A DNA stretch of 64,000 bases from Haloarcula rubra (lineage in GTDB: Archaea; Halobacteriota; Halobacteria; Halobacteriales; Haloarculaceae). The translations under genes were made by a program, and so were the position numbers. Location of the stretch: the NCBI RefSeq assembly GCF_019599465.1, contig NZ_RKLR01000006.1:1-64000 (forward strand), in the 5' to 3' direction. Position 1 is the first letter of the stretch. Each line of letters starts with the position of its first letter. The notes beneath the pieces are model-generated. The model had not been told where the DNA came from, ran no database searches, and was given only the letters and a program-made list of their open reading frames with translations. This document shows positions 33,442 through 57,901 of the stretch, one piece after another.

Positions 33442-35580
33442 ATGGCTTCTGACGTTAGTCACGTGACGCTCGACTGGCCAGCCACCGTCGTCGTCGTCGG
33501 CGAGAGCGAACGAGTCGAGGCCGCACTCGAAGCACTCACTGCTGAGCACGATGGCGCACGCGTGGTGTCGTTCAAGTCGCCGCGAGCGGCGCTGACCAGT
33601 CTCGAAGACGGTGGCGACGCGGACGTTATCGTGAGCACGAAGGCCCTCGACAGCGGGAGTGGCGTCGACTTACTCCGACACGTCACGGAGGCGTACCCCG
33701 ACCTCCCGTTCGTGCTGGCCGGCGCGGACGTGACCGTGACCGACGAGCGGACGGCGATAGAAGCAGGGGCGACCGACGTCGTTCGTCTCGACCCGGCAGA
33801 TTCGTCCGGCGACGGTGTCTTACGGGCCCGCGTCAGGCGTGCACTCGAAGGGTCGAGACCACGGGAGCGCCCACGAGTCGCCGACAGGAGCGACGCCCCC
33901 AGACTGCTGGGTGGCACCAGCGAGACGATTCGCAGACTGTTCGAGGCGTCGACGCGGGAGGCCGTCGCGGAGGCCGTCGTCGAGTCGGCCACGAAGACGC
34001 TGGACAACAGATACGCAGCGGTGTACCTGCTGGATAGCGACGGCCAGCACCTCCGGCGCGTCGCCGCGGCACCGGTGGACGACGACAGCGAAGGACCGGT
34101 GCGTGCCGGCCAAGGGACGCGACTCTGGGAGACGTTCGTTACCGGAGACGTGCACAGACACCGTGGTGCGTCCGTGGGGCAGGAGACCGGTGCCGACGGC
34201 GCTTCGGTGACGCTCCCGATCGGCGAGTTCGGCGTGTTGGACGTCGCCGTGGACGGCCCCGACGACGAAGCCGTCGGTGCCGGCGAGCAACTGACGAATC
34301 TCGCGACGGCAGCGACGGCGGCGCTCGAGCAGATAGCCGAGTCGCAGTCACTGCAACGGCAGGCGGCGGAACTCGACGAGCGTGCCGGTCGTCTCGAACG
34401 GCGTCGCACTCTCGTCGACGCCCTGTCTACCGTGCAGCGAGCGGCAATCGAGGCCGAGTCGCAGGACGAACTGGAGCAGCGGGTCGTGAACGGTCTGGCA
34501 GACACCGGCCAGTTCGCGTTCGTCCGCATCGAGCGAGTCGGGAGTCAGCGTGACCGACTCGAACCTCGGACGTGGGCGGGCGCGGAACGCGGCTACCTCG
34601 ACGCGGTCGACCTCCGGCTCGACGAGAGTGTTCAGGAGCCCGCAGTTCGGGCCGCCCGGACCCGGTCGACGCTCGTCGTCGACGACATCACGACCGGACT
34701 CCGGGACGACACGTGGCGCGAGGAAGCACTGACCCGCGGGTACCAGTCGGTGTTGAGTGTCCCGCTCTATCGGGACGACCGACTCTGGGGGACGCTGACC
34801 GTCCACGCGACCGACGCCGACGCGTTCGACGACGAGGTCGCCGGCGCGTTCGACGACATCGCCAGCGCCATCTCGAACGGTATCAGCGTCGTCGAGCGCA
34901 AACGCTCGCTACTCTCGGACACGGTGATAGACCTCGAGTTGACGCTGACGGACGGGACCGACCTCTTCAGCCGCGTGGCCCGTGAGACGGGCGCCACACT
35001 CGACTTCGAGGGGGTGCTCGCCCGAGACAACAGCGCGGTCCTGTTCCTCGTCGTCACCGACGCGGAGCCGGCAGCGGTCGAACGTGCCTTCGAGTCGGCA
35101 CCGCTGGTCGACGCCGTCGACCACGTCCCGCACGGCGACGGCGAACTGTACGAGATAGAACTTGAGTCCGTCTCCCTCGTGAGCGAGATACTGAGTTCGG
35201 GCGGAACACTGCGTGACCTCACCGCCGACGGCGACACGACGCGCCTGCTGGTAACTCTGCCAGCCGAGACGGACGTTCGGCGGTTCGTCGAGTCACTCGA
35301 ACAGGTCGCTCCGGACGTACGGTTGCACTCCCGGACTCAGCGGACGCGCCCGTCCCGTCGGGACCAACCGTTCCGGGTCGAGTTCGAACAGCGCCTGACC
35401 GACCGGCAGTTAGAGGCGCTTCGGACGGCGCTACTGAGCGGCTACTTCGAGTGGCCGCGCGAGCACACTGCCGAGGAGGTGGCGAGTTTGCTGGACATCT
35501 CCCAGCCGACGTTCAACCGCCACCTTCGAGTTTCGCTCAAGAAGCTGCTGGAGTTACTGTTCGACGTCGACGAGGAGTAG
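33442..35580 (+). CDS. Bat-type multidomain regulator (receiver-like, GAF, GAF, Bat, HTH_10)
   Basis: A 712-residue soluble regulator. Residues about 14-135 resemble a response-regulator receiver, but the phospho-acceptor position reads VIVSTKAL, with no Asp, so phosphorylation is doubtful. A GAF domain spans about 155-290, a coiled coil about 290-325 (LQRQAAELDERAGRLERRRT), and a second GAF domain about 330-475. A Bat domain covers about 485-640, and HTH_10 the last 60 residues (LTDRQLEALRTALLSGYFEW, VASLLDISQPTFNRHLRVSL). Bat homologues respond to oxygen or light via GAF/PAS ligands and activate transcription. It lies 121 bp downstream of lipoprotein 2 on the same strand, and the HalOD1 gene follows. 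Confidence 0.9.
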   Translation: MASDVSHVTLDWPATVVVVGESERVEAALEALTAEHDGARVVSFKSPRAALTSLEDGGDADVIVSTKALDSGSGVDLLRHVTEAYPDLPFVLAGADVTVTDERTAIEAGATDVVRLDPADSSGDGVLRARVRRALEGSRPRERPRVADRSDAPRLLGGTSETIRRLFEASTREAVAEAVVESATKTLDNRYAAVYLLDSDGQHLRRVAAAPVDDDSEGPVRAGQGTRLWETFVTGDVHRHRGASVGQETGADGASVTLPIGEFGVLDVAVDGPDDEAVGAGEQLTNLATAATAALEQIAESQSLQRQAAELDERAGRLERRRTLVDALSTVQRAAIEAESQDELEQRVVNGLADTGQFAFVRIERVGSQRDRLEPRTWAGAERGYLDAVDLRLDESVQEPAVRAARTRSTLVVDDITTGLRDDTWREEALTRGYQSVLSVPLYRDDRLWGTLTVHATDADAFDDEVAGAFDDIASAISNGISVVERKRSLLSDTVIDLELTLTDGTDLFSRVARETGATLDFEGVLARDNSAVLFLVVTDAEPAAVERAFESAPLVDAVDHVPHGDGELYEIELESVSLVSEILSSGGTLRDLTADGDTTRLLVTLPAETDVRRFVESLEQVAPDVRLHSRTQRTRPSRRDQPFRVEFEQRLTDRQLEALRTALLSGYFEWPREHTAEEVASLLDISQPTFNRHLRVSLKKLLELLFDVDEE

Positions 35581-36096: not shown

Positions 36097-36666
36097 TCAG
36101 GAGAACTGTCGGATGCCCGCTTCCACTACCAGCACCACGAGATGGAGCGCGAGTAGGGCGGGCAGGACGAACGACGTCAGTGCTGGACCCAGCGATAGGG
36201 TCGTGCCGAGGGCGACTACCGTGATGACGCTGGCGGCGAGCGTCAGGCGAAACGCAGGTGGCGAGGTGTCTTGCTTTTGATCGTCGGCCAACCAGTGACG
36301 GCCGATGTCGTCGAAGGCCGGACCGATTTGTATCGTCTTCGTCTCCGAGTCGTATTCGACGAGACCGACCTCGTCCAGTTTCGGCAAGTGGTTCTGACAC
36401 AGCGAGATGTACACGCTGTTGTAGATGTCGTCCGGAGATTTCGACGGGTCTGATACGATCTCCGCGACTCGTTCGCTCAGGTCGCTGACGTCCCAGACCT
36501 CGTCGGACTGGGACAGCAGTTTGAGACACACGCGCCGACGTTCGTTACCAAGGAGGTCGTACACCGCATCCTCGTCGAGTTTCGGAACCTCCCGGTCCGG
36601 GCCTGATGTCTCGTCCTCGTCGGACGAGAGCCACGACGGGCGCGCAGATAATTTCGATAGTACCAT
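36097..36666 (-). CDS. DUF7344 regulator with C-terminal membrane helices
   Basis: I chose ATG 36666 (189 residues) over a TTG six codons upstream. The soluble half (about 30-125) is the DUF7344 winged helix: AVYDLLGNERRRVCLKLLSQ, VYISLCQNHLPKLDEVGLVE and YDSETKTIQIGPAFDDIGRH. Two membrane helices follow (about 138-158 and 160-182). The family combines DNA-binding-like domains with membrane anchoring in haloarchaea. It is downstream of its relative at 36740 on the same strand with a 73-bp gap, so they may form a heteromeric pair. Confidence 0.82.
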   Translation of the reverse strand: MVLSKLSARPSWLSSDEDETSGPDREVPKLDEDAVYDLLGNERRRVCLKLLSQSDEVWDVSDLSERVAEIVSDPSKSPDDIYNSVYISLCQNHLPKLDEVGLVEYDSETKTIQIGPAFDDIGRHWLADDQKQDTSPPAFRLTLAASVITVVALGTTLSLGPALTSFVLPALLALHLVVLVVEAGIRQFS

Positions 36667-36739
36667 TAGTGTATTTTCCCTCAATAGTCTATTATGTATC
36701 GAGAGAGGTCCACGTCGGGTGATCGAACATCGAATCGAC

Positions 36740-37468
36740 TCACTGGTTCCAGTTGCTCGCGTCCGGGTCGGTCAACCCGAATCCCGACCAGGACGACTCG
36801 GTCATCCAGTGGCTCACGGCGAGCAGTGTGAACAGCGCGCTCACCAGAATCCCCACACCGATTTGTGACGGGAGCGCCGCGGACATGAGCCCACTAGAGA
36901 GCGCAGACGCGACGAACAGACTGCCACCGGCAGCGTAGAGATAGCGTTTGTGCCAGCTTACGTCGACGTCAGCGCCCGTCTGGTCGTCGCCATCCATCTC
37001 CGGTGCCGGAGTGTCGGCGGAAGCCTCGGCATCCGTCCCCGGTTCCTCGTCTTGTAGGAGCGAGGGTTCGCTGGCGAGGTAGGCGTCGAATCGCGAGGCC
37101 AGCTCCGTCGTCTCGACGTAGCCCCGACTCTGGTTGTACTCGAGGACGCCCGCCTTGTCCATCTTCGGCAGATGGGACTGATAGAGTGCGATGTACACGC
37201 GCTGTCGCTGCTGGGAACGGAGCGCGTCGATGGTCGTGTCGTGTTCCAGGGCCGCGATGTGCTCTGCGATGTCGCCCATGCGCGCCGGCTCGTCGCCGTC
37301 GTACTCCTGGAGATACTTGAGGACGAGGCGACGACGGCGACACTGGAGGACGTGGAAGATGTCGTCGCGCGTCAACTCCGGTTCCGAGTCGGAATCAGAG
37401 TCGGACGCGGATTCCGTCTCGTCGGAGGTGCTGTCTGACGTCTCGTTTCGGAGTGTAGCTTCGGGCAT
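36740..37468 (-). CDS. DUF7344 regulator with acidic N-terminus and membrane anchor
   Basis: A 242-residue protein: an Asp/Ser/Glu-rich N-terminus (about 8-32), a DUF7344 winged helix (about 33-130: IFHVLQCRRRRLVLKYLQEY, VYIALYQSHLPKMDKAGVLE), an acidic linker, and two membrane helices (about 178-197 and 200-220). Architecture and the motif (YQSHLPKMD versus CQNHLPKLD) show it is a paralogue of the next gene. A TATA box 30 bp ahead of the start implies a leaderless or nearly leaderless mRNA. Confidence 0.85.
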   Translation of the reverse strand: MPEATLRNETSDSTSDETESASDSDSDSEPELTRDDIFHVLQCRRRRLVLKYLQEYDGDEPARMGDIAEHIAALEHDTTIDALRSQQRQRVYIALYQSHLPKMDKAGVLEYNQSRGYVETTELASRFDAYLASEPSLLQDEEPGTDAEASADTPAPEMDGDDQTGADVDVSWHKRYLYAAGGSLFVASALSSGLMSAALPSQIGVGILVSALFTLLAVSHWMTESSWSGFGLTDPDASNWNQ

Positions 37469-37495: not shown

Positions 37496-37506
37496 CCATA
37501 TAAAGC
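37496..37506 (-). promoter_or_regulatory. TATA box of the DUF7344 gene
   Basis: GCTTTATATGGGG on the minus strand, centred about 33 bp upstream of the start at 37468. Transcription would begin within about 8 nt of the ATG, as in leaderless haloarchaeal transcripts. Confidence 0.5.
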
Positions 37507-37960
37507 GCCGGTTGTTCCGGTCCTTTCCACCGTCAATAACTGTTTCACACGGTCCGGCAAGAGTCTAAAACGTCGTTAAACACCGTTCACGTCCAGTGGA
37601 ATGGTTCGTTCCGAGGGGTCGAAAACGCCAGTAAGCGGGTCCTGAACCCGGCTGATTGCGTACACTCACCGTCGGACTCGCCCGAGAGCGGCCTCGGAGC
37701 CGTGTAGCTCTCCCTACGGGTTCAGGTCGATGTCTACCGTTGCAGCCTCTCTGAGGCCAGTTAGTGCGTCGATAAGGCCACCTTACCGGGAAGAATCGGG
37801 GCGACAGTCACGTTGGCGAGAGTGCTCGAGCGGTCAGAAGTGGCTATCGGAGAGGTGGAAGGCCGCCGCGAGCGACGACTGACGCGACAATCTCGATGGG
37901 ACGAACAGTCCCACGGCTATCGACCGCGTGCTCGCTCGACAGTGCCGACCACAGCGGTGG
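37507..37960. other. Intergenic stretch, nothing identified
   Basis: About 450 bp between the promoter of the DUF7344 pair and the stop of the calcium-repeat protein. No frame shows coding character on either strand and no RNA gene or repeat stands out. Confidence 0.3.
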
Positions 37961-39748
37961 TCAGCAGACTGTGCCGGAACCGGGACGGTCGACTGGCCCG
38001 GAGCGGTCGTCCCGCTCTCGCTCCAGTTGCATCTGAGGCGGCTTGGCCTCTTCGAGGCAGATGAGGTTCTCGCGCCCGATGCGGAGCTTCACGATGTCGT
38101 CGTCCTCGTCCATGCCGGAGAGTAGCCGACTCACCTTCGCCTTCGACCAGTCGGTGACGGCGACGATGTCACTCTGTTTCATTCGCCCGGCCTCGGCGCG
38201 CAACATCTCTAACACCAGTTCGTCGTCGGCGACGAGGTCGTCGTCACGGTCTGCGACGACGGCGTCCGCGGAGTCGGCTATCGGCTCTGCGTCGCCGTCG
38301 GCGTCCGACGTCGAACCCGACTCGATAGCGCCGTCGGTCATCTCGAGCGCCCGGTCTTCGGACCGGAGGAGGCCCCTCTGGACGGCTCGAACCCTATCGA
38401 CGACGTCGATGACGAACCCACCTCGGATGGCGGTGATACTGAGTCCGATACCGACGACGAACCCGAGGAACGTACTCGTCAGCCACGCGGGCGTGAGTTG
38501 ACTCGTCGGGTCCGTCCCCAGAGTGGTCTCTAGCTTGTCGCCCATCAGGTCGCCGTCCGTGTCCGCGCTGGTCGGGTCGGTCCCCGCTCGGTGGACTTCG
38601 CGTCCGTCTTCGAGGCCGTCACCGTCCGTGTCCGCCACCGTCGGGTCGGCGCCGGCCTCTAGCTCCGCTCCGTCGGCGAGGCCGTCGTCGTCAGTGTCAG
38701 CAACCGTCGGGTTCGTCCCTTCGGTCACTTCCTCCTTGTCCGTGAGTCCGTCACCGTCCGTGTCCGCGACCGTCGGGTCAGTGCCGAGAGAGACTTCCTT
38801 GCTGTCTGCGAGGCCGTCGCCGTCCGTGTCCGCCGTGAGCGGGTCGGTACCCAACTCCAGTTCTTTGCCGTCGGAGAGCCCGTCACCGTCCGTGTCCGCG
38901 ACCGTCGGGTCAGTCCCCTGTGCGAGTTCACGACTGTCCGTGACGCCGTCACCGTCCGTGTCCGCGACCGTCGGGTTGGTACCCTCTGATAGTTCGACGC
39001 TGTCAGAGAGGCCGTCGTCGTCCGTATCGGAGGCGGTCGGGTCGGTGCCGAGTTCCAGTTCACGGTGGTCCGAGAGCCCGTCACCGTCCGTGTCCGCCAC
39101 CGTCGGGTCGGCGCCGACGCTGAGTTCGACTCGGTCCCCGAGGCCGTCCCCGTCGGTGTCGGCCGTCGTCGGCGACGTCCCGTGTTCGTGCACCTCTGCG
39201 CCGTCGGACAGCCCATCACCGTCGGTGTCGCTGTTGCTCACGTTCGTCCCGGCCTCGACCTCGTTCTCGTTGTTCAGGCCGTCGCCGTCGAGGTCGCCAC
39301 TTCGGGGAATCTGCTGGACCGTGATAGAGTGCGTATCGAGAACGGTGCCAGTCTCGGTGTCTCGGAGCGTCAGGTTCAGCGTCGTCTCGGTCGCGTTCGA
39401 GTCAGAAGGATAGGAGAGAGTCGGTGAAGAGGTGTTCGCGAGCGACGTGCACGTCGTAGTACCGTTCGTTTCGAGACAGAGTTCGGTCTGCGGTCCTGCC
39501 GAGGACGTCTCCACACTGACGAGATAGGCGTCGACAGGCTGACCTTGGGCCGTGTGTCCCCAGACATATGTCGTGTTCCCAACAGAACCGGCAGCGTGTG
39601 TCTGGCGCACGTCGGCGATGGTGGCCGATGCCGTTCCCTCGCTGTCACTTGCGGGGGCCGCGCCCGCTGCAACGCCGGCAGAGAACGCTATCACCGTCGT
39701 TAAAGCGAGGATAACCCTGATTGCGCACGATAACTGACGCTTGTCCAT
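37961..39748 (-). CDS. Extracellular calcium-repeat protein with membrane helix and cytoplasmic winged helix
   Basis: A 595-residue protein. A signal peptide (about 1-33, ending AAGAAPA) and a beta-rich domain with two Cys (about 40-145) precede twelve thrombospondin-type-3/calcium repeats of about 23 residues (about 151-425; unit DTDGDGLSDxxELxxGTDPT). A membrane helix follows (WLTSTFLGFVVGIGLSITAI, about 433-452). The C-terminal cytoplasmic part has an acidic linker and a winged helix (about 515-575: DELVLEMLRAEAGRMKQSDI, VAVTDWSKAKVSRLLSGMDE) of the DUF7343 type. Such one-component receptors could transmit an extracellular cue directly to DNA. The repeats would rigidify on Ca2+ binding. 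It has its own promoter and no operon partner. Confidence 0.88.
   Translation of the reverse strand: MDKRQLSCAIRVILALTTVIAFSAGVAAGAAPASDSEGTASATIADVRQTHAAGSVGNTTYVWGHTAQGQPVDAYLVSVETSSAGPQTELCLETNGTTTCTSLANTSSPTLSYPSDSNATETTLNLTLRDTETGTVLDTHSITVQQIPRSGDLDGDGLNNENEVEAGTNVSNSDTDGDGLSDGAEVHEHGTSPTTADTDGDGLGDRVELSVGADPTVADTDGDGLSDHRELELGTDPTASDTDDDGLSDSVELSEGTNPTVADTDGDGVTDSRELAQGTDPTVADTDGDGLSDGKELELGTDPLTADTDGDGLADSKEVSLGTDPTVADTDGDGLTDKEEVTEGTNPTVADTDDDGLADGAELEAGADPTVADTDGDGLEDGREVHRAGTDPTSADTDGDLMGDKLETTLGTDPTSQLTPAWLTSTFLGFVVGIGLSITAIRGGFVIDVVDRVRAVQRGLLRSEDRALEMTDGAIESGSTSDADGDAEPIADSADAVVADRDDDLVADDELVLEMLRAEAGRMKQSDIVAVTDWSKAKVSRLLSGMDEDDDIVKLRIGRENLICLEEAKPPQMQLERERDDRSGPVDRPGSGTVC
38530..39300. 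repeat. Tandem DNA repeat encoding calcium-binding units
   Basis: About 69-72-bp units built round GTCACCGTCCGTGTCCGC, twelve in a row, in frame. The units are well diverged at third positions except for the DTDGDG core, so selection on protein rather than recent duplication explains most of them. Confidence 0.8.
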
Positions 39749-40055
39749 GTTGCGCGAGCAAAGAACGCAATAACTGATAGCCTTTTTGGCTCGTCAGACG
39801 TTAGTCACACGTTTTAAACCCAACAGAGGTACTAGCCAAATTTTGTCAAAAAAGCCGCTTCGTTCAGTTAATTTCATCTTAAGCGAGGGAGCTGGGACCG
39901 ATTAGTCAATTTTGCCGGCGAGGTGACTCGCCATCAGTAATTAATCATACACCTCTGGACGACCCGGTCGATACCGACCGATACTGGTTCGCGACAGACC
40001 GTTCCAGAAATATTAATAGGGGTTTACGCTCCGAACGGTGTCCATAACGTACTGT
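39749..40055. promoter_or_regulatory. Intergenic stretch upstream of the calcium-repeat gene
   Basis: About 307 bp, AT-rich, no gene. On the minus strand it serves as the promoter region of the calcium-repeat gene and as terminator region of the asparagine-synthase-like gene; AGCCTTTTTGGCT near 39780 and TATTAATATTTC near 40010-40020 are the notable features. Confidence 0.35.
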
Positions 40056-41825
40056 TCAGTTATGCCCGTACGGTGCGGACGCCGCCTGAGGGTCCTCTTG
40101 GGGCTGTACGAGGTCCGAAGGGTCTATAGAGGTAGAGGTGTCGTCTGTGGTCGAATCGAGCCAGGTGGTGACGTCGTTGACACGGAGTTTGAGGCGCCAG
40201 GGGAGTTCCTGGACGCCCGGCGAATCCGAGAATATCTTCTCGTCGAGCCCGCACTGGTCGTACAGCTCCGCTCGGTCGGGCCACGGTCCCTGATAGCCGG
40301 AAACGAACGGCATCGCTCGTCTGAGGAAGTTGTCTATCTGGTTGAAGGTGTAGGAGTCGTACGGCCGGTCCGGGGGTCGGTGGTGGAGTATGTCGTCGTC
40401 GAGTTTGCGGAGGGCACGCAGGTACGTCTGCGTGTTCCGGTGCTCTGGCGGTGTGGCGAGGTGCCACTCGACGAGTTCCGCGTCGAGTGAGACACAGGAC
40501 TCGACGAACTTGTCGCTCAACTGGAACCGGAACGGCCGCGAGGGTTGGTTGAGTATCCCGAACAGCGCCATCCCGTTGTAGAGTCTGTCGAAGCGATGGT
40601 CCCAGCGGTCCAGAACCTCGTCGACCCGACGACGGAGGAACTCCTTGCCGGACTCGTCGAACATCGTGGTGTCCCGAGAGAGCATCTCGGAGGCGGGGAG
40701 GTAGCCGAACTTCTCGGCGAAGTGGTTCGCGATGTCCGGGTCGGGGTCCATGCGATACGGTGGACACTTCCGGTCGAACACCTCAACGCCGGTAATCGGC
40801 TGGAAGTGCCCGCGCAACATCGTGTCGGCGAGGCCGCCGTGGTAGATGGTGTCCACGTCCATCTGGTCCATGTACCCCGCGTGGTGGATGTGGAGGGACT
40901 CCATGATACCGTGCCCGTACTTGACGGTCTCGAGGTCCGTGTTCAGGTACCGCTCGTCGACGGAGAGCGTCTGGTGAGGAATCCCGTACTGCGTGGCGAG
41001 TTGCTCTGCGACGGTGAGTTCGGAGCTATCGGACTCCCCGACTGTGTAGGCGGCGTCGAGGTCGGAGATGCCAGCGAGAATCGTCCGTGAGTCGTACCCA
41101 CCGCTCAGCAGGACCCCCTTGCGTCCGGGGAGTCCGCTGCGGCGTTCGAGCGCGCGACGCATCCGCTCGGCCAGTTCGGCCGCGTAGTCGAACTCACGGG
41201 ACTCGTAGACGAACCGACCGAACTCGTGGGTATCTGTGGCAGTCAGCCAACTGTCGAAGGGAATACGACTGACCTGTTGGAGCGCCGTTCTGTCGTCGAA
41301 GACGACGCCGAAGTGCAAGAACTCGAGCAGCGGTTCGTAGTCGACTCGCGGGCTGGAGACCGTGGCGGCGACAGTCGCCGGGTCGGTCCCGAACACGCGC
41401 GTCCCGTCCGTGTCCGCGTAGTAGCACTCCCGACTCCGGACGCTGTCGGTCGCGACGACGCCGGACTGGTTCTCGTGGTCAGCGACGGCGATGAACGAGC
41501 CGTTGAATCCGGTCAGCGCGTCAGTGCCGTGCGCTGCGTACTCCGAGAGCGCCCACTCGGCGGGGTCCGTGCCGTCGATGGAGCGAGGATAGGCCTCTCC
41601 CCAGACGGCACAGACGCCTTCCTCGTTCTCGTAGACGGTAGTTCGACCGGGAATGTCGAGTTCCGAACTCCGTACGCCGAACGTGAGGTCGGGACCCGAG
41701 ACGACTCTATCGAACTCGTCCGGCGACCGGTACTGTTCGAACGTGCTCTCGTCACCGAACACCCCGAACAGTTCCTTGTTCATCGGGCGGACGTCCCGGT
41801 CGACCTGTTGCATCTGGAGAGACAT
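40056..41825 (-). CDS. asnB: Asparagine-synthase-like amidotransferase without N-terminal Cys
   Basis: I chose ATG 41825 (589 residues), whose A is shared with the glmS stop (TAATG); MNKELFGVFG at 41783 is an alternative that fits the family's usual N-terminus. The N-terminal region (about 15-200) is a class-II glutaminase-like fold, but the protein does not begin with Met-Cys, so the nucleophile for glutamine hydrolysis is missing. The synthetase part has the PP-loop SGGYDS (near 255) followed by YTVGESDSSELTVAEQLATQ. Such AsnB-like proteins occur in archaeal and bacterial polysaccharide clusters and may amidate sugar acids or be regulatory. Coupling to glmS supports an amino-sugar context. 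Confidence 0.85.
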   Translation of the reverse strand: MSLQMQQVDRDVRPMNKELFGVFGDESTFEQYRSPDEFDRVVSGPDLTFGVRSSELDIPGRTTVYENEEGVCAVWGEAYPRSIDGTDPAEWALSEYAAHGTDALTGFNGSFIAVADHENQSGVVATDSVRSRECYYADTDGTRVFGTDPATVAATVSSPRVDYEPLLEFLHFGVVFDDRTALQQVSRIPFDSWLTATDTHEFGRFVYESREFDYAAELAERMRRALERRSGLPGRKGVLLSGGYDSRTILAGISDLDAAYTVGESDSSELTVAEQLATQYGIPHQTLSVDERYLNTDLETVKYGHGIMESLHIHHAGYMDQMDVDTIYHGGLADTMLRGHFQPITGVEVFDRKCPPYRMDPDPDIANHFAEKFGYLPASEMLSRDTTMFDESGKEFLRRRVDEVLDRWDHRFDRLYNGMALFGILNQPSRPFRFQLSDKFVESCVSLDAELVEWHLATPPEHRNTQTYLRALRKLDDDILHHRPPDRPYDSYTFNQIDNFLRRAMPFVSGYQGPWPDRAELYDQCGLDEKIFSDSPGVQELPWRLKLRVNDVTTWLDSTTDDTSTSIDPSDLVQPQEDPQAASAPYGHN

Positions 41826-43642
41826 TACTGGACTGTCACACTCTTCGCGAGGTTGCGTGGTTTGTCTATGGCCCTGTCGAGTTGCTTCGCCGTGTGATAC
41901 GAGACGAGCTGGAGCTGGATGTTGGCGAGGAGGTTCTGACACACCGGATGCGTGTCGGGGACTTCGAGGTAGGCGTCGGACTCCGCGACACCGGGACCGT
42001 CCGCCGGTCCGACACCGATAATCTCGGCCCCCCGAGTCTGTGCCTCCTTCGCGTTCGTAACCGTCTTCTCGGCGTCTTCACCGGTAAAGAGGCCGAAGAC
42101 GGGCGTCTGAGAGGTGACGAGTGCCAGCGGGCCATGTTTCAGCTGTCCCGAGGCGAAGCCCTCAGCGTGTTCGTAGGTAATCTCCTTGAACTTCAGCGCG
42201 CCTTCGAGCGCGACGGGGCGACTCATCCCCCGTCCGATGAAGAAGTACGCGTCGTACTCCAGGAGCCGTGAGGCCAGTTCCTCAGCACGGCTGGTCTCGA
42301 CGACGTGGTCGATGTGGTTCGGAATCTGCTCCAGCGCGGCGAGCAGTTCCGAGAGGTCTTCGCGTGGCGACGCGTCCGGGAGTTCGGCCGCTATCTTCTG
42401 CGAGAGCAGAATCAGCGTGACGACCTGTGACGTGAACGTCTTCGTCGCAGCGACCCCTATCTCGGGGCCGGCGCGGATGAACACGCTCTCGTCGGCCTCC
42501 CGGGCGGCGGTGGATCCGACGACGTTCGTGACGGTCACCGTCGACGCGTCGCGCTCGGTGGCCGTGCGGAGTGCCGAGAGCGTGTCCGCCGTCTCCCCGC
42601 TCTGGGTCACCGGGATGACGAGCGTCCCGTCAGACGTGGGGCCCGCCATCTTCGCGTACTCGCTGGCTCGGAACACGCGGGCACGAACGCCGGCGTCGGT
42701 GAGCATTCGCGCTCCGAAGAGCGCGGCGTGGTACGACGTCCCGCACGCGACGAGGTGGACGTTCTCGACGCCGTCCAGAATCTCGGGGTCGAGTTCGTCG
42801 AGGGCGACCTTCCCTTCGTCGGGGTCGACCCGACCACGAATCGTCTTCGAGAGTGAGGTAGACTGGTTGTGAATCTCCTTGAGCATGTAGTGGTCGAACG
42901 CGCCCTTCCCGACGTCCTCTGGGTTCCAGTCGACGCGCTCGCCGCTCCGGTCGACAGAGAGCCCGTTCTCGTCGAAGATGTGGGCCTCGTCGGGTTCGAG
43001 GATCACCACGTCGCCGTCTTCGAGATAGACGACGTCGCGCGTGTGCTCGATGAACGCGGGGATGTCGCTAGCGAGGTAGTACTGGCCGTCGTCGAGGCCG
43101 AGGACGAGCGGCGACCCGGCCCGGGCCGCGTACACGCGACCCTCGTCTCGGACGAGGGCGGCGATAGCGTAACTGCCTTCCAGTTCCTCGACTGCGCGAC
43201 GGAAGGCCGCGATAGTCTCCGACTCTTGCTTTCGGAAGTGTTCGAAGAGGTGCGGGATGACTTCGGTGTCGGTGTCGCTCGTGAACTCGTATCCCTCGTC
43301 CGAGAGGAACTCGCGCAGTTCCGCGTGGTTCTCGATGATACCGTTGTGAACGACGGCGACGTTGTCGGTGTCGCTGGTGTGTGGGTGGGCGTTCTCGTCG
43401 GTGGGCGGGCCGTGGGTACTCCAGCGCGTGTGGCCGATACCGACGTCGCCTGACGACGCGGCGGTCTGAATCTCGTCGCGGACCTCCGAGACGTCACCGG
43501 CGCGCTTGTGGACGGCGATGCCGGAGCCGTTCTGGACGGCGATGCCGGCAGAGTCGTAGCCGCGATACTCGAGCCGTTCCAACCCGTCGATGAGCGTCCC
43601 CACTGCGTCGTCCGCCCCAGCATGTGCAATGATACCACACAT
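41825..43642 (-). CDS. glmS: Glutamine-fructose-6-phosphate aminotransferase
   Basis: A 605-residue isomerising transaminase that makes glucosamine-6-phosphate from fructose-6-phosphate and glutamine, the first step to UDP-GlcNAc. The N-terminus MCGIIAHAG carries the catalytic Cys2. GIGHTRWSTHG and NGIIENHAELREFL complete the glutaminase domain (about 1-230), and two SIS sugar-isomerase domains follow (VACGTSYHAALFG near 300; IGRGMSRPVALEGALKFKEI near 465). The C-terminal AKSVTVQ is the conserved tail that reaches the active site. Full length. It is translationally coupled to the asparagine-synthase-like gene and lies at the edge of the surface-glycan locus. Confidence 0.96.
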   Translation of the reverse strand: MCGIIAHAGADDAVGTLIDGLERLEYRGYDSAGIAVQNGSGIAVHKRAGDVSEVRDEIQTAASSGDVGIGHTRWSTHGPPTDENAHPHTSDTDNVAVVHNGIIENHAELREFLSDEGYEFTSDTDTEVIPHLFEHFRKQESETIAAFRRAVEELEGSYAIAALVRDEGRVYAARAGSPLVLGLDDGQYYLASDIPAFIEHTRDVVYLEDGDVVILEPDEAHIFDENGLSVDRSGERVDWNPEDVGKGAFDHYMLKEIHNQSTSLSKTIRGRVDPDEGKVALDELDPEILDGVENVHLVACGTSYHAALFGARMLTDAGVRARVFRASEYAKMAGPTSDGTLVIPVTQSGETADTLSALRTATERDASTVTVTNVVGSTAAREADESVFIRAGPEIGVAATKTFTSQVVTLILLSQKIAAELPDASPREDLSELLAALEQIPNHIDHVVETSRAEELASRLLEYDAYFFIGRGMSRPVALEGALKFKEITYEHAEGFASGQLKHGPLALVTSQTPVFGLFTGEDAEKTVTNAKEAQTRGAEIIGVGPADGPGVAESDAYLEVPDTHPVCQNLLANIQLQLVSYHTAKQLDRAIDKPRNLAKSVTVQ

Positions 43643-43968: not shown

Positions 43969-44811
43969 ATGCCTGAGAGACCTTCTCGGAGAAAGTTCCT
44001 GGCTGCGCTGGCGGCTGGGTCGGCAATCACCGTCTCTGGCTGTGCGAGTGTCGTAGAGAGTGTCAACGGATCTGGCGGCGAGACGCCGACAGAAAGCGGC
44101 GAGGTGCCAGTATCGAACGCGTCACAATCGACGCCGGAGCCGACGCAGACGGCGAACGGGACGAGCGCCGCAGAAGAGACCGAGACCGAAGAGCAGTGGT
44201 CGATAGACGAGGTGACGATATCGGAACCGTCCGTCTCACTCTCCTCTGTCACGCTCCCCGAAGACGATGTCGCGTACCCGACGATGGGCGACGCCGACGA
44301 GACGCTGACCGTCTACGGAAGTTGGAAGTGCCCCTACACGCGCGAGTTCGTACTGACCCAGTTCCCGAGCCTCGTCGACGAGTTCGTGCGTTCCGGTGAC
44401 GTCTCGGTGCAATTCCGGTCCGTCGCCTATCGCGGCGGCGAACCGTTCCTCGGCGTCGACGCACCGCGGTCGACTCGCGCGGGACTCGCCGTGTGGGAGA
44501 CCGACCCCGAGTCCTTCTGGGAGTACTTCACCTACGTCTTCGCCAACCAGCCACAGGAACGGTATCGCTGGGGCAAGCCCGCACTGCTCACGCGCTTTGC
44601 CGGTGCCGCAGACGTGTCCGACCCGTCCGAAATCCGGCAGGCGGCGTCGGACGAGAGCGCCTACGAGTCTCGCATCGAGCAGACACTCACGGACGCGGAC
44701 GAGAACGATATCTGGACCGTTCCCCGTGTCGTCTACGACGGCGAGGTGACGGCGCCGACACTCGACGCCGAGAGCACGCGCGAGCAGTTCGAAGCGGCGG
44801 CCGACGAGTAG
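43969..44811 (+). CDS. Exported DsbA-like thioredoxin-fold lipoprotein, single Cys at the active site
   Basis: A 280-residue protein. A Tat signal (SRRKFLAALAAG) ends in the lipobox VSGC (Cys24), followed by a Ser/Thr/Glu linker to about 75. The remainder is a DsbA-type thioredoxin fold: TLTVYGSWKCPYTREFVLTQ holds the active-site position, then helix-rich insertion and a cis-Pro region NDIWTVPRVVYDGEVTAPTL. The canonical CPxC motif is reduced to CPYT, so only one Cys is present and ordinary dithiol oxidase activity is unlikely; it could be a reductant of mixed disulfides, a metallochaperone-like or structural variant. It stands alone at the edge of the polysaccharide locus. Confidence 0.82.
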   Translation: MPERPSRRKFLAALAAGSAITVSGCASVVESVNGSGGETPTESGEVPVSNASQSTPEPTQTANGTSAAEETETEEQWSIDEVTISEPSVSLSSVTLPEDDVAYPTMGDADETLTVYGSWKCPYTREFVLTQFPSLVDEFVRSGDVSVQFRSVAYRGGEPFLGVDAPRSTRAGLAVWETDPESFWEYFTYVFANQPQERYRWGKPALLTRFAGAADVSDPSEIRQAASDESAYESRIEQTLTDADENDIWTVPRVVYDGEVTAPTLDAESTREQFEAAADE

Positions 44812-45209
44812 TCGACGGAGACGGTGGCAGCCTCACTCGGAGGAGCCATCGACCCGCAGAGCCTGTTTTAATGGAGATTTAAGCGGTCGCGAGGCGTCGG
44901 CACTCCGTCGTCGGCATTCGCATCAGCTCGTTTCTCGCGTGTAGACGCGCGCTGCGCCGGACACGCGGACGCGCGGCGTGAGACGCCAGCCGTGTGAATA
45001 GACCACAGTCCGCGGTCGGAACCTTAGGCACCTGCGAAGCAGTCCACTCGGGCGACACGATTCGTCGCCGTCACGCCGTCGTCTGTTTTATTTCACGCGA
45101 ATTAGGCGCTATCGTACTTAGCGGGCCCATAGGAATGCCCCCACGGCGTCGTTGTGTGAACGAGAACAGCCCGTATAGGTCGCACAGGGCTGGTGAACCG
45201 GTGATATCT
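44812..45209. other. Intergenic stretch before the glycan operon
   Basis: About 400 bp, promoter region of the operon that begins at 45210. TTTTAATGGAGATTTAAGCG near 44867 and TTTTATTTCACG near 45085 are AT-rich candidates. The frame of the first gene is open upstream but not acidic. Nothing else seen. Confidence 0.35.
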
Positions 45210-46562
45210 ATGAATTCGCTCCCAAGCAACGACGCAATCGACGGTATAAGCCCGACACAGGTACCTCAGGACGTTACACCCCGAGAGACGACGGTCTGTG
45301 TCGTCGGTCTCGGCTACGTCGGGCTCCCGCTCGCGGTCGGCTTCGATCAGTCGGGCTACGACGTAATCGGCTACGACATCTCGGAGGAGACGGTGGCACG
45401 GCTCTCGGACGGCAACGACACCACTGGTGACCTCGGTGACGAGGCCATCGAGGACGGCGAGGTATCGTTCACCACCGAACCCGGAAGCATCGCCGAGGCT
45501 TCCTACGTTCTCGTCACCGTCCCGACTCCTATCGACGAGAACCGGGACCCCAAGATGGACTTCGTCGAGGGCGCGGCCGAGACTGTCGGTCGCCAGATGA
45601 CGCCCGGGACCACTGTCATTCTCGAATCGACCGTCTATCCGGGTGCGACGAGGGAAGTGATGGTGCCCGCGCTCGAAGACGCCTCCGGACTCGACTGCGG
45701 CGAGGACTTCTACGTCGGCTACTCGCCCGAACGGGCCGTCCCCGGCGACGAGGAACACGGTCTTCAGAACGTCATGAAGATCGTCAGCGGACAGGACGAG
45801 GCCGTGGGCCAGAACGTCAAGGCGCTGTACGACCACGTCATCGACGCCGGCGTCCACCTCGCGCCCACGATGGAGGTCGCGGAGGCGGCGAAGGTCGTCG
45901 AGAACGTCCAGCGGGACGTGAACATCGGCCTCGTGAACGACCTCGCGATGACCTTCGAGCAGATGGACATCGACACCGAGGCCGTCCTCGACGCCGCCGG
46001 GACGAAGTGGAACTTCCACGATTACAGTCCGGGGCTGGTCAGCGGACACTGCATCCCCGTCGACCCGTACTTCCTCATCCACCGCGCGAGCCAGGAGGGT
46101 CGGTCGCCGGAACTCGTCGAAGCCAGCCGGTCGGTCAACGAGTCCATGCCCAAGCACGTCGCCGACCTCATGGTGAAGGCGCTGACCGAGGCGGGCCGAC
46201 CGCTCGCGGACTGTCGGGTTCTGGCCGCCGGGCTGACCTACAAGGCCGACGTGGCCGACATCCGGAACGCGAAGATAGCCGCTGTCCTCGAGGAACTGCA
46301 GGAGTTCGGCATCGAAATCGTCGGCTACGACCCGCTCCTCGACGACGAGACCATCACGGACTACCTCGACATCGAGACCCAAGAGAAACTGAACTTCGAC
46401 GGGTTCGACGGCCTCCTTCTCGGGGCGGCCCACGACGAACTGGAGAACCTCAACCCGAACATCGTCGCGGCGGAGCTTTCGGACCCGCCGGCCATCGTCG
46501 ACGTGAACCGCGCCTTCGACGAGGGGGACCTTCCCGACGGGGTCGCCTACAGGAGGGTCTGA
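45210..46562 (+). CDS. Nucleotide-sugar 6-dehydrogenase (UDP-Glc/UDP-HexNAc type)
   Basis: I chose ATG 45210 (450 residues). The NAD-binding Rossmann start is VVGLGYVGLPLAVGFDQSGY at about 30-50, and VPTPIDENRDPKMDF is typical of UDP-sugar dehydrogenases. The catalytic Cys lies in GLVSGHCIPVDPYFL (near 282), and a C-terminal UDP-binding domain follows (AGLTYKADVADIRNAKIAAV). Variation around DATPID...SGHCIPVDPYFL favours the TviB/WbpO/AglM-like group that oxidises UDP-GlcNAc/GalNAc or UDP-Glc to uronic acids. The glycosyltransferase gene begins one base after its stop, so it is the first gene of the operon. Confidence 0.92.
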   Translation: MNSLPSNDAIDGISPTQVPQDVTPRETTVCVVGLGYVGLPLAVGFDQSGYDVIGYDISEETVARLSDGNDTTGDLGDEAIEDGEVSFTTEPGSIAEASYVLVTVPTPIDENRDPKMDFVEGAAETVGRQMTPGTTVILESTVYPGATREVMVPALEDASGLDCGEDFYVGYSPERAVPGDEEHGLQNVMKIVSGQDEAVGQNVKALYDHVIDAGVHLAPTMEVAEAAKVVENVQRDVNIGLVNDLAMTFEQMDIDTEAVLDAAGTKWNFHDYSPGLVSGHCIPVDPYFLIHRASQEGRSPELVEASRSVNESMPKHVADLMVKALTEAGRPLADCRVLAAGLTYKADVADIRNAKIAAVLEELQEFGIEIVGYDPLLDDETITDYLDIETQEKLNFDGFDGLLLGAAHDELENLNPNIVAAELSDPPAIVDVNRAFDEGDLPDGVAYRRV

Positions 46563-46563
46563 G

Positions 46564-47592
46564 ATGTACCGTGGCCAGACGGTCGGCGTCGTGTTGCCGG
46601 CGTACAACGAGGCCGAACACGTCGGGTCGGTCATCGAGTCGCTCCCCGCGTACGTCGACCGCGTGTACGCCATCGACGACTGCTCGACCGACGAGACGTG
46701 GGACGTGATTCGCGAGTACGCGACTACGAGCGACCAGACGACCCAGCAGGTCGCGGCCGCCAGCGCGGACGCTACCGAGGAAGTGATGTTGCCCGACGGC
46801 CACGGTGGTAGGGTTCCCGACGTCGTCCCGGTCCAGCACACCGTGAATCAGGGCGCTGGCGGGACACTCAAGACCGGGTACCTCCTCGCTGCGCGCGACG
46901 GCATGGACGCGACGGTCACCATCGACGCGGACGGACAGATGGACCCGGACGAGATGGACCGCTTGCTCGACCCCATCGTCGAGGGGCGTGCAGGCTTCTC
47001 GAAGGGGAACCGGCTGGCCGACACCGACGCCGCGGGCGGGATGCCACCGTTCCGGTTGCTCGGCAACTGGCTGCTGACGCTGATGATGAAGCCCGCGAGC
47101 GGCTACTGGCGGCTTCGCGACCCGCAGAACGGTTACACCGCGATTTCGAAGGAGGCGCTCGACGCCGTCGAAATCGAGGCCATCCCCGACGACCACGACT
47201 ACCCGAACGACCTCCTCGCGCGCCTGAACGCCGCGGGCGTCCGCGTCGCCGACGTGCCGATGGCGGCGATATACGGCGACGAGGAGAGCACCATCGAGTT
47301 CTCGGAGTTCGTCAAGCGAACGTCGACGACGATACTGGCGGCGTTCCTCTGGCGGCTCGGCACCGAGGGCAAGCAGGGCCGCGCCCACCTCTCGGGGCTC
47401 TACTCGGTCGGCGCAGTGGGTGTGGTCGTCGGTCTGCTCGCGGCGGTCAGTAGCGCCCTGTCGGCGCTGCTCCCCGACGCGTTCTCGGCCAGTTGGCCGA
47501 AGTCGCTGTTCGCTATCCTCGGTGGCGTGGTCGCGCTCACGCTCGCCGTCGGCACGGAGCGACAGACCGACGCCGAGGTGATTCGGGAATGA
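46564..47592 (+). CDS. GT2-family glycosyltransferase with C-terminal membrane helices
   Basis: A 342-residue membrane-associated glycosyltransferase of the GT-A fold. VGVVLPAYNEAEHVGSVIES begins the nucleotide-binding region; DDCSTDETW is the DDxS element; TIDADGQMDPDEMDRLLDP contains the DxD metal site (about 118-124). Two membrane helices (about 283-305 and 312-334) end the protein. The features match the DPM1/DPG-synthase-like branch, which transfers a sugar to dolichol/polyprenol phosphate. The tight position after the UDP-sugar dehydrogenase suggests it uses its product. The DUF354 gene overlaps its stop by four bases. Confidence 0.9.
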   Translation: MYRGQTVGVVLPAYNEAEHVGSVIESLPAYVDRVYAIDDCSTDETWDVIREYATTSDQTTQQVAAASADATEEVMLPDGHGGRVPDVVPVQHTVNQGAGGTLKTGYLLAARDGMDATVTIDADGQMDPDEMDRLLDPIVEGRAGFSKGNRLADTDAAGGMPPFRLLGNWLLTLMMKPASGYWRLRDPQNGYTAISKEALDAVEIEAIPDDHDYPNDLLARLNAAGVRVADVPMAAIYGDEESTIEFSEFVKRTSTTILAAFLWRLGTEGKQGRAHLSGLYSVGAVGVVVGLLAAVSSALSALLPDAFSASWPKSLFAILGGVVALTLAVGTERQTDAEVIRE

Positions 47593-48665
47593 ACGTCGTC
47601 GTGACCGTCCAGCACGCCGGCCACGTGCACTTCTTCAAGCACGCCATCGACGAACTGACGCGGCGCGGCCACGACGTCCGGGTGTTCGCCCGTGACAACG
47701 AGGCCTCTATCGAACTACTGGAGTGCTGCGACATCGACTACGAAGTCCTCGCAGGGTCTTCCGACTCGCTCCTGTCGCTCGCCACGGCGCAAGCGACCTA
47801 CGAGGCGCGTCTGTTGCGTCGGGCGATGGCGTTCGAGCCGGACGTCATGACGGCCATCGGTGGCGTCGCCGTCTCCCACGTCGCGTCGCTGGTCGGCGCA
47901 CGGAGCGTCGTCTTCTACGATACCGAGCACGCTACACTCATCCGACGGCTGGCGTTCCCCTTCGCCGACACGGTGTGTACGCCGGACTGCTTCCGCGACA
48001 ACGTCGGTTCGAAGCAGGTCCGCTACCCCGCCTATCACGAACTCGCCTACCTCCACCCGGACCACTTCGACCCGGACGAGTCGGTCCTCGAAGACGTCGG
48101 ACTGGAGACGGACGACGACGTCGTACTCGTCCGTCTCGGGGACTGGAGTTCCTCTCACGACGTCGGTGTGAGCGGTATCGACGACCCCGTGGCCCTCGTC
48201 GAGCAGTTGGAGGCCGACGGGGCCGAGGTGCTACTCAGCACCGAAGGTGACCTGCCCGACGGACTCACCTCGCGTGGGTTCGACCTCGAACCCGACCGCT
48301 TCCACGACCTGCTGGCGGCCATCGACCTCTACGTCGGCGAAGGCGGGACGACGGCCGCCGAGTGCGCCACGCTCGGCACGCCCGCCGTCTACGTCAGCGA
48401 CCTCACGCTCGGCTACCTCGACGAACTCGAATCGCGGTACGGCCTCGTGATCAACTGTGCCGGAGACGAGGGTACCGACACGGCCGCCGAGGCAGCCCGG
48501 TCGATGCTCGCGGAGCCAGAAACGGAGTTCCAGCAACGACGAATGCACCTCTTGACTGAGAAAGTAAATCCGACCGATGTCATACTCGAACAACTCACAG
48601 GCGACCCGAGTGCCCCACGGCGGGGCACAGAGGCTGTCGAAACACCGCCGAAGAACGTCGGGTGA
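47589..48665 (+). CDS. DUF354 glycosyltransferase-like protein
   Basis: I chose ATG 47589 (358 residues), which overlaps the previous stop (ATGA). DUF354 proteins share the GT-B-type two-domain fold of UDP-GlcNAc 2-epimerase/MurG relatives. Here MNVVVTVQHAGHVHFFKHAI is the N-domain start and DLYVGEGGTTAAECATLGTP is the donor-binding C-domain signature (EGGT/E-rich loop near 240). Family members are frequent in archaeal glycan clusters but their chemistry is unproven. The gene is in the middle of the five-gene operon. Confidence 0.85.
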   Translation: MNVVVTVQHAGHVHFFKHAIDELTRRGHDVRVFARDNEASIELLECCDIDYEVLAGSSDSLLSLATAQATYEARLLRRAMAFEPDVMTAIGGVAVSHVASLVGARSVVFYDTEHATLIRRLAFPFADTVCTPDCFRDNVGSKQVRYPAYHELAYLHPDHFDPDESVLEDVGLETDDDVVLVRLGDWSSSHDVGVSGIDDPVALVEQLEADGAEVLLSTEGDLPDGLTSRGFDLEPDRFHDLLAAIDLYVGEGGTTAAECATLGTPAVYVSDLTLGYLDELESRYGLVINCAGDEGTDTAAEAARSMLAEPETEFQQRRMHLLTEKVNPTDVILEQLTGDPSAPRRGTEAVETPPKNVG

Positions 48666-48669
48666 TGAG

Positions 48670-49602
48670 ATGCGGATACTGCACCTGACGACTGGTCGGC
48701 GGTCGTTCTTCGAACAGCAAGTCGAGGCACTGCGCTCTCACGGCATCGACTGTACGGTACTGAACGTGCCGGGCGACTACGCAGCCGACGACCCCCGGAG
48801 CGTGACCGACTATCTGAAGTACTACCCACAGGTACTCGAACACGGACTCGACGAGTACGACCTCGTCCACGCGAACAACGGCCTCACGGCGCCGTTCGCG
48901 CTCGCACAACCGACCCGTCCCGTCGTCGTCACGTTCTGGGGCAGCGACCTAATGGGCGACCACGGCTGGGTATCGAAGGTCGGACAGTACAGCGCGAAAC
49001 GGGCCGACCGTGTGATACTCCCGAGCCACAGGATGTCCGACTACGTCGACTGTGACTACACGCACATGCCGTTCCCCGTCGACACGGAACGGTTCCAACC
49101 GATGGACAAGGCCGAAGCGCGTGCCCACGTCGGCTGGGACCAAGACGAGACTATCGTGCTGTTCCCGTACGACCCGAGTCGGCCCGAGAAGGACTACGAC
49201 CGGGCCGAGAAGGTCGTCGACGCGGCCGACGTCGACGCCGACCTGCGGACGCTGACCGGCAAGCCGTACGACGAGATGCCGTACTACCTGAACGCGAGCG
49301 ACACGGTGCTCGTCACCTCGAAACGCGAGAGCGGGCCGATGGTAGTCCGAGAGGCCGCGGCGTGTAACGTCCCGGTCGTCTCGACGGACGTCGGGTTCGT
49401 CCGAGAGACGCTCGAAGACGTCGGCCAGTCGGCCGTCTGTGGCTCCGACATCGAACTCGCCGGCTCGCTCGAAATCATTCTCTCGACCGAGCAGCGACCG
49501 GACGCGCGCGAACAACTGGACCAACTCGACCCGGCCGGGTTCGGACAGCGACTCGAGCAGACGTACGCGTCGGTCATCGACCGGACGGAGGGGACCGCAT
49601 GA
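48670..49602 (+). CDS. GT4-like glycosyltransferase
   Basis: I chose ATG 48670 (310 residues). A GT-B glycosyltransferase: MRILHLTTGRRSFFEQQVEA starts the acceptor domain and SWKxxGPM-type donor motif is KRESGPMVVREAAACNVPVV (near 220), equivalent to E-G-x-P-x-x-x-x-E-A in GT4. It starts four bases after the upstream stop and overlaps the next start by four bases, so it is translationally coupled. No membrane helix. Donor and acceptor unknown. Confidence 0.88.
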   Translation: MRILHLTTGRRSFFEQQVEALRSHGIDCTVLNVPGDYAADDPRSVTDYLKYYPQVLEHGLDEYDLVHANNGLTAPFALAQPTRPVVVTFWGSDLMGDHGWVSKVGQYSAKRADRVILPSHRMSDYVDCDYTHMPFPVDTERFQPMDKAEARAHVGWDQDETIVLFPYDPSRPEKDYDRAEKVVDAADVDADLRTLTGKPYDEMPYYLNASDTVLVTSKRESGPMVVREAAACNVPVVSTDVGFVRETLEDVGQSAVCGSDIELAGSLEIILSTEQRPDAREQLDQLDPAGFGQRLEQTYASVIDRTEGTA

Positions 49603-51587: not shown

Positions 51588-51608
51588 CGGACCAATTTTC
51601 GCGCCCGA

Positions 51609-52655
51609 TCACTCCGCGACAGCGTCCAGCAACCGTTCTTCCGCCGCTCGGCCGGGATCGAAGGCGCTGCCGTCGCGCTCGCTCGCGAGTGCGTCCTCGA
51701 CAGTCCGTTCCATGGCTTCTTCGACGGGCGTCGACTCCCAGCCGAGCGCGGCGAGTTTGCACGTCGACAGCACGTGGGGGTAGTTGTGTCCGAGGTGGTG
51801 ATAGAGGACGAAATCGTCCGGCGTGAGCCCGACCGCTTCGAGTTCGCGGCGACTCGCGTGGACCACGTCGACGGACGTGTCGAGCGTTTCGGCGACGAGA
51901 TCGACGACGTCCTCCATCGTGAGGACGAGTCGGTCGGCGACGTTGTACGCCTCGCCGGGGGTGCCGTCCTCGGCCACGACGCGGAGGGCACTCGCGACGT
52001 CTTCGACGTAGACGCGGTGCCAGATGGCGGTCCCGTCACCCGGCACGACGACGCGGTCGTAGTCGGCGACGCGGTGTATCCAGTACTCGTGGTGGTTCTG
52101 GATGCCCGGTCGGTCGGGTGCCCACGAGACGGACCCGTCCCAGCCGTCGAGTGATTTCGGGCCGTACACCATCGTCGGTCGGACGCTGGTGGCGGCCACG
52201 CCGTCCTCGGCCGCACGGGTAACGATACGGTCACACTCGGCCTTTCTGGGGCCGTAGCTAGCCATCGTGTCGTCGTCGCCGTGTGTCGGAGAATACGAGT
52301 GGAGCGGCGTGTCAGATTCACGTTTCGGGATGTCCTTTCGGGCGTATACCCCGCCACTGGAGACGTAGACGTAGGCGTCGACGTCGGCGAACGTCTCCAC
52401 GGCGACCCGGGCGTCCTCCGGGTGGAACAGCGCGCAGTCGACGACGACGTCCGGGTCGGTCCGGTCGACTGCCGACCGGAACGCTTCGGTGTCCGTTCGG
52501 TCGACCGTGACGTGTGTGACGGCGTCTAAGTTATCGGCCGATTCGGCCCGGCGACGACGGCTGAACGCCGTCACGTCGTACCCGTGGTCGAGCAGTTCGG
52601 CTACCGTGTGGCGGCCGACGAAGCCGGTTCCGCCCACGACGAGCGCGGAAACCAT
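51609..52655 (-). CDS. NAD-dependent epimerase/dehydratase
   Basis: A 348-residue extended short-chain dehydrogenase. The cofactor motif is GGTGFVGRHTVAELL (residues about 8-22), and the catalytic Tyr-x3-Lys is YGPRKAE near 133-139; TSVRPTMVYGPKSL is the usual substrate-loop motif. The C-terminal part lacks the long conserved blocks of GalE or RmlB, so it belongs to the broad atypical group that acts on nucleotide sugars or related compounds. It is convergent with the membrane-protein gene (21 bp between stops) and starts the minus-strand half of the glycan locus. Confidence 0.88.
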   Translation of the reverse strand: MVSALVVGGTGFVGRHTVAELLDHGYDVTAFSRRRRAESADNLDAVTHVTVDRTDTEAFRSAVDRTDPDVVVDCALFHPEDARVAVETFADVDAYVYVSSGGVYARKDIPKRESDTPLHSYSPTHGDDDTMASYGPRKAECDRIVTRAAEDGVAATSVRPTMVYGPKSLDGWDGSVSWAPDRPGIQNHHEYWIHRVADYDRVVVPGDGTAIWHRVYVEDVASALRVVAEDGTPGEAYNVADRLVLTMEDVVDLVAETLDTSVDVVHASRRELEAVGLTPDDFVLYHHLGHNYPHVLSTCKLAALGWESTPVEEAMERTVEDALASERDGSAFDPGRAAEERLLDAVAE

Positions 52656-52700
52656 GCGAGAAGTTGTATCTACACCAACATAACGATAGCTCCGTCACTG

Positions 52701-53456: not shown

Positions 53457-53562
53457 GGTTCGGCGAGTGTGTGATTACTTATCTTGCCGATAATGCGTCC
53501 GTGCGGCCCAGCCGACTCGGAGAGCGTCGCGCTAACGGAGGCGTACCGGAGGCCGTCGCCGG

Positions 53563-54138: not shown

Positions 54139-54236
54139 CGTGGTCAGGCCAGGGCCGGTGTTGGCAGTGCAGTCGTCGGCGTCGAAGCGTCATGTATCGC
54201 GTCGTCGTATCGAGTAGGTAGTATCGTCATTGGAGT

Positions 54237-55235: not shown

Positions 55236-55329
55236 TGCTACGTCGTACACTCCAACGGGCCCTTATTATTCGTCGGATAAGGCCAATACACCCGAATCGC
55301 GAGACGGACGACTGACAGGTACCCGCGCA

Positions 55330-56247: not shown

Positions 56248-56307
56248 GTCCGAGCGAACACACCGGGGGGAGTTTATTACCCACCCGATAAGCCGGAACC
56301 CGTCGTC

Positions 56308-57819: not shown

Positions 57820-57901
57820 ATCCGAGGAGTGCGACGGGGTAGATTTATTTATGCAGTCCCCTATACAGCCCTAATCGTCCATTTTCTGTCATCAATGGAG
57901 T

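Follow-up and report, generated by a model that had tools for sequence, protein, structure and literature searches.

What might an extracellular stalk of calcium-binding-type repeats be doing in a haloarchaeal protein that ends in a putative DNA-binding domain, and what would such a protein control? The question is raised by an open reading frame of 595 amino acids at 37961–39748 on the minus strand of a 64,000-nucleotide stretch of Haloarcula rubra DNA (contig NZ_RKLR01000006.1, positions 1 to 64,000; the window). A sequence-only reading had placed the frame at these same coordinates, which are correct, and had seen in it a Ca2+- or surface-dependent stalk that signals directly to transcription. 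On balance, we lean towards the view that this protein, here called the receptor, is a transmembrane one-component regulator in which an Ig-like tip on a TSP3 stalk senses a surface signal and a winged helix controls an adjacent gene, DUF7344a. At a locus beside a surface-polysaccharide cluster, a surface stalk would then be coupled to transcription, apparently with no kinase involved.

Domain order, topology and predicted folds

Read from the N-terminus, with all coordinates on the minus strand, computation gives the receptor a signal peptide or N-terminal hydrophobic segment (aa 1–30, 39659–39748; hydropathy and sequence), an Ig-like beta-sandwich with a Cys91/Cys100 pair and five sequons (aa 44–147, 39308–39619; AlphaFold, Foldseek and alignment), twelve TSP3 or EF-hand-like repeats (aa 152–418, 38495–39295; Pfam, TRF and loop motif), a single TM helix (aa 423–441, 38426–38482; hydropathy, AlphaFold and sequon topology), an acidic linker, a DUF7343 winged helix in which the WSKAKVSRxLS recognition-helix region is invariant (aa 506–565, 38054–38233; Pfam, alignment and AlphaFold) and a tail of 30 aa. 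Residues 12–30 and 423–441 are the only hydrophobic segments by hydropathy. The repeat unit is 22–23 aa long and follows the pattern DxDxDGxxDxxE, with loops beginning at residues 152, 174, 197, 219, 241, 263, 285, 307, 329, 351, 373 and 396, and the underlying DNA has a 66-bp period (TRF). D1, D3, D5, D/N9 and E12 of an EF-hand-type loop are present in 12/12 repeats, and Ca2+ binding would be predicted from these ligand positions (D1/D3/D5/D9/E12). Pfam TSP3_bac (PF18884) matches 11 stretches at E=4e-70 (231.5 bits against a gathering score of 25) and DUF7343 (PF24034) matches aa 506–565 at E=7e-25 (87 bits against 27.6), so that the twelve repeats, single helix and C-terminal winged helix of the sequence-only reading are borne out by Pfam, the loop motif and hydropathy. 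The Pfam scan of the receptor found no HisKA/HATPase or receiver domain and no DUF7345 ectodomain.

Apart from those of the receptor, no TSP3 repeats of this genome exceed the Pfam cut-off; the same contig carries one weak TSP3-like repeat below it, within an open frame of 2340 aa (G000:C34:108690-108746). The plus strand over 37961–39748 is interrupted by stop codons, and its 296-aa open reading frame at 38523–39413 was rejected as a gene, being an antisense shadow of the repeats (PSPSVSATVG) across a minus frame that encodes a conserved protein.

Two features of 13 homologues bear on topology. N-glycosylation sequons number 92 between the signal peptide and the TM helix (4811 residues) and 0 past it (2033 residues), a distribution with P ~1e-14 under even placement, ignoring composition and relatedness, and the 30 residues after the helix contain 3–6 Lys/Arg against 0–2 in the 30 before it. 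Together these distributions place the repeats outside and the winged helix inside, the arrangement that the sequence-only reading had proposed and that the 92 versus 0 sequons support; in the topology analysis the repeats were not assigned to the inside.

The fold predicted for the C-terminal part is likewise a winged helix of the helix-turn-helix type. An AlphaFold model built from the alignment shows helices and a two-stranded wing at pLDDT ~90, and it is best matched in the PDB by the winged-helix proteins MarR, ArsR and AspA, at probability ~1; no PDB match falls below E=0.001, probably because disorder makes up much of the model. Across the 13-member alignment the winged helix is invariant at WSKAKVSR and RENLICL, and fold and conservation together suggest that the receptor binds DNA. 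The TM helix and linker are modelled with low confidence (pLDDT 40–60, with ~40 for the flexible linker), and a single TM helix followed by a long flexible acidic linker would also suit regulated intramembrane proteolysis that frees the winged helix as a cytoplasmic factor; we consider this quite unlikely, as the conserved cassette contains no protease gene and described transmembrane regulators are taken to work from the membrane (PMC10269533).

At the other end of the receptor, the N-terminal domain with three repeats was modelled at pLDDT 91 as an Ig-like beta-sandwich of ~105 aa that resembles the CARDB of PF1109 and part of the BT4663 sensor region (Foldseek). This domain is conserved among homologues, with one Cys invariant; a phage or viral origin for it was considered and rejected, the viral matches being merely generic Ig-like ones. 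By sequence, the solved structure nearest to the ectodomain profile is that of a staphylococcal biofilm-associated surface protein (7c7r, E=1.7e-4), and both TSP3 repeats and folds of the Ig-like/CARDB type are characteristic of adhesins. It could be argued on these grounds that the receptor serves chiefly as an adhesin at the surface or as a stalk of the envelope, in which the winged helix is a non-regulatory module for dimerisation or DNA anchoring. However, nowhere is the receptor more conserved than in its recognition-helix and wing residues, and a promoter block next to its gene, described below, co-occurs with it, and we regard a purely structural role as very improbable.

If the receptor is a regulator, it becomes important to ask which part of its ectodomain would do the sensing. 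The sequence-only reading favoured the repeats, as a Ca2+-dependent sensor, and this we find unsupported: their number ranges from 7 to 12 in homologues and differs by whole units, which fits a spacer, and the conserved Ig-like tip is likelier than the repeats to be the ligand-binding part. The Ca2+-sensor idea is also weak because haloarchaeal brine is rich in Ca2+/Mg2+, so that the Ca2+ sites may be always filled and convey no signal. Not seen in that reading were the Ig-like tip domain, the DUF7344 genes linked to the receptor gene, and a promoter element, the last two of which are discussed below.

Relatives and place among known regulators

Among 391 haloarchaeal genomes, 23 have the same Ig-TSP3-TM-DUF7343 architecture, each in a single copy, the carriers comprising 18 of 24 genomes of the window's own genus together with three other genera. 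Identical architecture in 23 genomes excludes a recent chimera or an assembly artefact. A search of genome contigs with the C-terminal part of the receptor found only one close relative. Membrane proteins with a DUF7343-like end, on the other hand, were present in all 292 of the 292 haloarchaeal genomes searched, which makes the TSP3 type the rarer one. Two proteins of the same genome (L002 and L003) are of the DUF7345-TM-DUF7343 type (PF24036 + PF24034) and resemble the receptor in having a signal peptide, an ectodomain, one TM helix, an acidic linker and a C-terminal DUF7343; the recognition helix of L002, WS[NK]AKVS, is similar to that of the receptor. They differ in that their ectodomain is DUF7345, with neither a TSP3 stalk nor an Ig-like domain. 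The receptor is a variant of these widespread DUF7345-TM-DUF7343-type membrane proteins.

We know of no DNA-binding domain in the bacterial TSP3 surface proteins Bap, CglD and MtsD. These share tandem extracellular DxDxDG repeats with the receptor (the Bap B domain is PDB 7c7r) but are adhesion or motility proteins. ToxR and CadC have an N-terminal DNA-binding domain and one TM helix, an order that is reversed in the receptor, which has a signal peptide first and its winged helix at the C-terminus. Transmembrane transcription regulators of the ToxR/CadC-like kind combine a TM region and a DNA-binding domain in one polypeptide (PMC10269533), and the receptor, one chain without a kinase like them, fits that definition with a predicted DNA-binding domain and at least one TM helix in one protein. 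With the TSP3/Ig ectodomain on a DUF7343 regulator, this known class gains a new architecture. The sequence-only reading knew of no described system built exactly like this, though it mentioned related one-component haloarchaeal proteins with DUF7343 ends; the architecture is new, but the kind of protein is known (PMC10269533) and DUF7343-type membrane proteins are found in 292/292 genomes. Similarly, its proposal of direct signalling without a kinase keeps the order of outside, membrane and DNA-binding parts in one chain, for which topology, fold and occurrence in at least four genera speak, and loses the Ca2+-sensing repeats.

An archaeal parallel in type is ArnR/ArnR1 of Sulfolobus acidocaldarius, a membrane-bound one-component HTH regulator of surface structures; the paired boxes that it binds lie between −43 and −84, just ahead of the TATA box (PMC6396743). 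The receptor is likewise of the archaeal membrane-bound one-component HTH type, with what may be paired boxes before a TATA box. The layout of ArnR, an N-terminal HTH followed by a HAMP/sensor part and two C-terminal TM segments (PMC6396743), is not that of the receptor, which has the reversed order, no HAMP match and one TM helix (Pfam, hydropathy); the two neighbouring DUF7344 proteins come nearer to ArnR in layout than the receptor does. DUF7343 and DUF7344 are abundant (292/292 genomes for the former; 28 DUF7344 matches in this genome), yet a full-text literature search found no paper naming either, and nothing useful on archaeal TSP3.

A promoter block tied to the receptor gene

Downstream of the receptor gene and on the same strand lie one or two DUF7344 genes in 14/14 loci read. 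In the window there are two, both on the minus strand: DUF7344a (36740–37468), with an N-terminal DUF7344 winged helix and a hydrophobic C-terminus, is the proposed target gene, and DUF7344b (36097–36684) is another winged-helix protein of the DUF7344 family, whose C-terminus has two hydrophobic segments. A close DUF7344a (E below 1e-49) was found in 22/23 carriers and in one other genome among the 391; the carrier G142 has a diverged DUF7344 at the DUF7344a position. The gap before DUF7344a, 492 bp in the window, ends in a conserved promoter block that consists of GTGAAACAGT (37539–37548, minus strand), the distal half and a candidate operator, and then GRAACNNYCGNCNC, two bases ahead of the TATA box. 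The proximal half with its TATA box, GGAACAACCGGCGCTTTATAT (37498–37518, minus strand), has a single match in the whole genome. An RNA element in the gap was considered and rejected, as there was no Rfam match and the conserved portion is the promoter block.

The block is restricted to genomes with the receptor, in counts that draw on related and so non-independent genomes. Of 21 receptor loci, 16 have an exact GTGAAACAGT in the 200 bp that precede the DUF7344a start, 4 have it with a single mismatch and 1 has it with two, where an exact 10-mer would be expected by chance in ~1 in 2,700 such stretches (even base composition). Five separated lineages have exact copies: the window together with H. 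pellucida, other Haloarcula, G265, G138 and G142. By contrast, 0/11 DUF7344 promoters without a receptor gene come within one mismatch of it. The proximal half with the TATA box was found in 16/18 carriers and 0/14 non-carriers among the 32 Haloarcula genomes searched, the other two carriers having one-base variants, and in 3/3 carriers of a second genus; over all these genomes together, only one match lies elsewhere.

In the window, one-mismatch matches to the GTGAAACAGT 10-mer number 7 against a shuffled mean of 2.25. The exact motif does not point to a wider regulon, as the genome has only one other exact composite match (C1:28328). That the receptor also regulates its own gene by way of this block was rejected, the 200 bp upstream of that gene being without it (best 4 mismatches). 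A GCCAAAAAGG-like sequence ~30–45 bp before the receptor start codon, in the window at 39749–39810 and at the same place in L042-L053, is conserved in both sublineages.

Which protein would bind the block? It sits upstream of the DUF7344a gene itself, and DUF7344a might bind it in autoregulation, with the receptor merely modulating DUF7344a or acting at other sites that went unrecognised. DUF7344a and the receptor are nearly always inherited together, so 22/23 genomes cannot tell the two binders apart, and a single genome (G230) separates them. There GlmS, an AsnB-like gene and DUF7344a stand in the same order, and the DUF7344a is 54–55% identical to that of the window (other Haloarcula orthologues 54–61%), but both the receptor gene and the block are absent. 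This single case favours the receptor as the binder, and autoregulation by DUF7344a seems to us rather doubtful. In G142, ~50 bp before the DUF7344 start and downstream of the receptor gene (7978–9852 of L051), the block contains a perfect 15-bp palindrome, GTGAAACAGTTTCAC, of which other lineages retain mainly one half; the palindrome suggests a dimeric binder.

A possible relay and its surroundings

Taking the receptor as the regulator, we picture the following sequence of events. The Ig-like domain, which a TSP3 stalk of varying length and putative Ca2+ binding would hold off the membrane, would meet a signal at the surface, most likely a glycan of the matrix or envelope, or the state of the envelope. 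The signal would pass through the one TM helix and the juxtamembrane linker to DUF7343, probably by way of changed dimerisation, and the tethered winged helix would bind the composite site GTGAAACAGT ... GRAACNNYCGNCNC immediately before the DUF7344a TATA box and so control DUF7344a, whether by activation or repression. DUF7344a, a winged helix with a hydrophobic C-terminus, might then pass the output further. It is the conserved promoter block tied to the receptor that may point to regulation of transcription from the membrane, and the putative dedicated target promoter next door is the most useful new lead. The locus thus supplies a short, nearly genome-unique DNA element beside a DUF7343 receptor, which makes membrane DNA binding and sensing by DUF7343-type proteins directly testable in Haloarcula. 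It is tempting to speculate, and we do so only tentatively, that membrane receptors of this kind, with swappable ectodomains, serve essentially one promoter, that of the neighbouring DUF7344, in a two-step membrane-confined relay that needs neither kinase nor diffusible factor and whose target stays in reach through gene neighbourhood.

The pairing of the two families recurs in this genome: 3/10 DUF7343 matches lie within 1.5 kb of a DUF7344 match where 0.18 are expected (P=6e-4), one of the three pairs sitting at the family cut-off. Another DUF7344/DUF7343 pair of this genome (G000:C5:69920-71173; L128:3894-5173) is convergent, with a short single-TM DUF7343 protein that has no large ectodomain and a DUF7344 promoter without the block.

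The wider neighbourhood of the receptor-DUF7344 cassette varies between lineages. In the window, a gene for a Bat/HTH_10 regulator lies near the cassette (33442–35580, plus strand); in another Haloarcula genome (L042) a Bat/HTH_10 protein is encoded directly upstream of the receptor gene, and similar open reading frames stand there in several more. Directly upstream of the receptor gene in the window are an Asn-synthase-like gene and GlmS (40056–43642, minus strand), which we treat as context and not as core. Beyond them, 43969–60310 holds a cluster of the surface-polysaccharide type, with a UDP-sugar dehydrogenase, two glycosyltransferases, DUF354, a DUF2206 membrane protein, an epimerase, a right-handed beta-helix protein and a Wzx-type flippase. 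This adjoining cluster suggests surface polysaccharide as the controlled process, a contextual lead because most Haloarcula cassettes are not beside GlmS/UDP-sugar genes; the context of GlmS, Asn-synthase-like gene and UDP-sugar dehydrogenase is that of the window, H. pellucida (L041) and three genomes of another genus. In a Haloarcula genome without the TSP3 receptor (L130, G337:C2:750000-764000), GlmS, the Asn-synthase-like gene and the UDP-sugar dehydrogenase are surrounded by two DUF7344 genes and the gene for a small DUF7343-like membrane protein, another receptor type in the same place.
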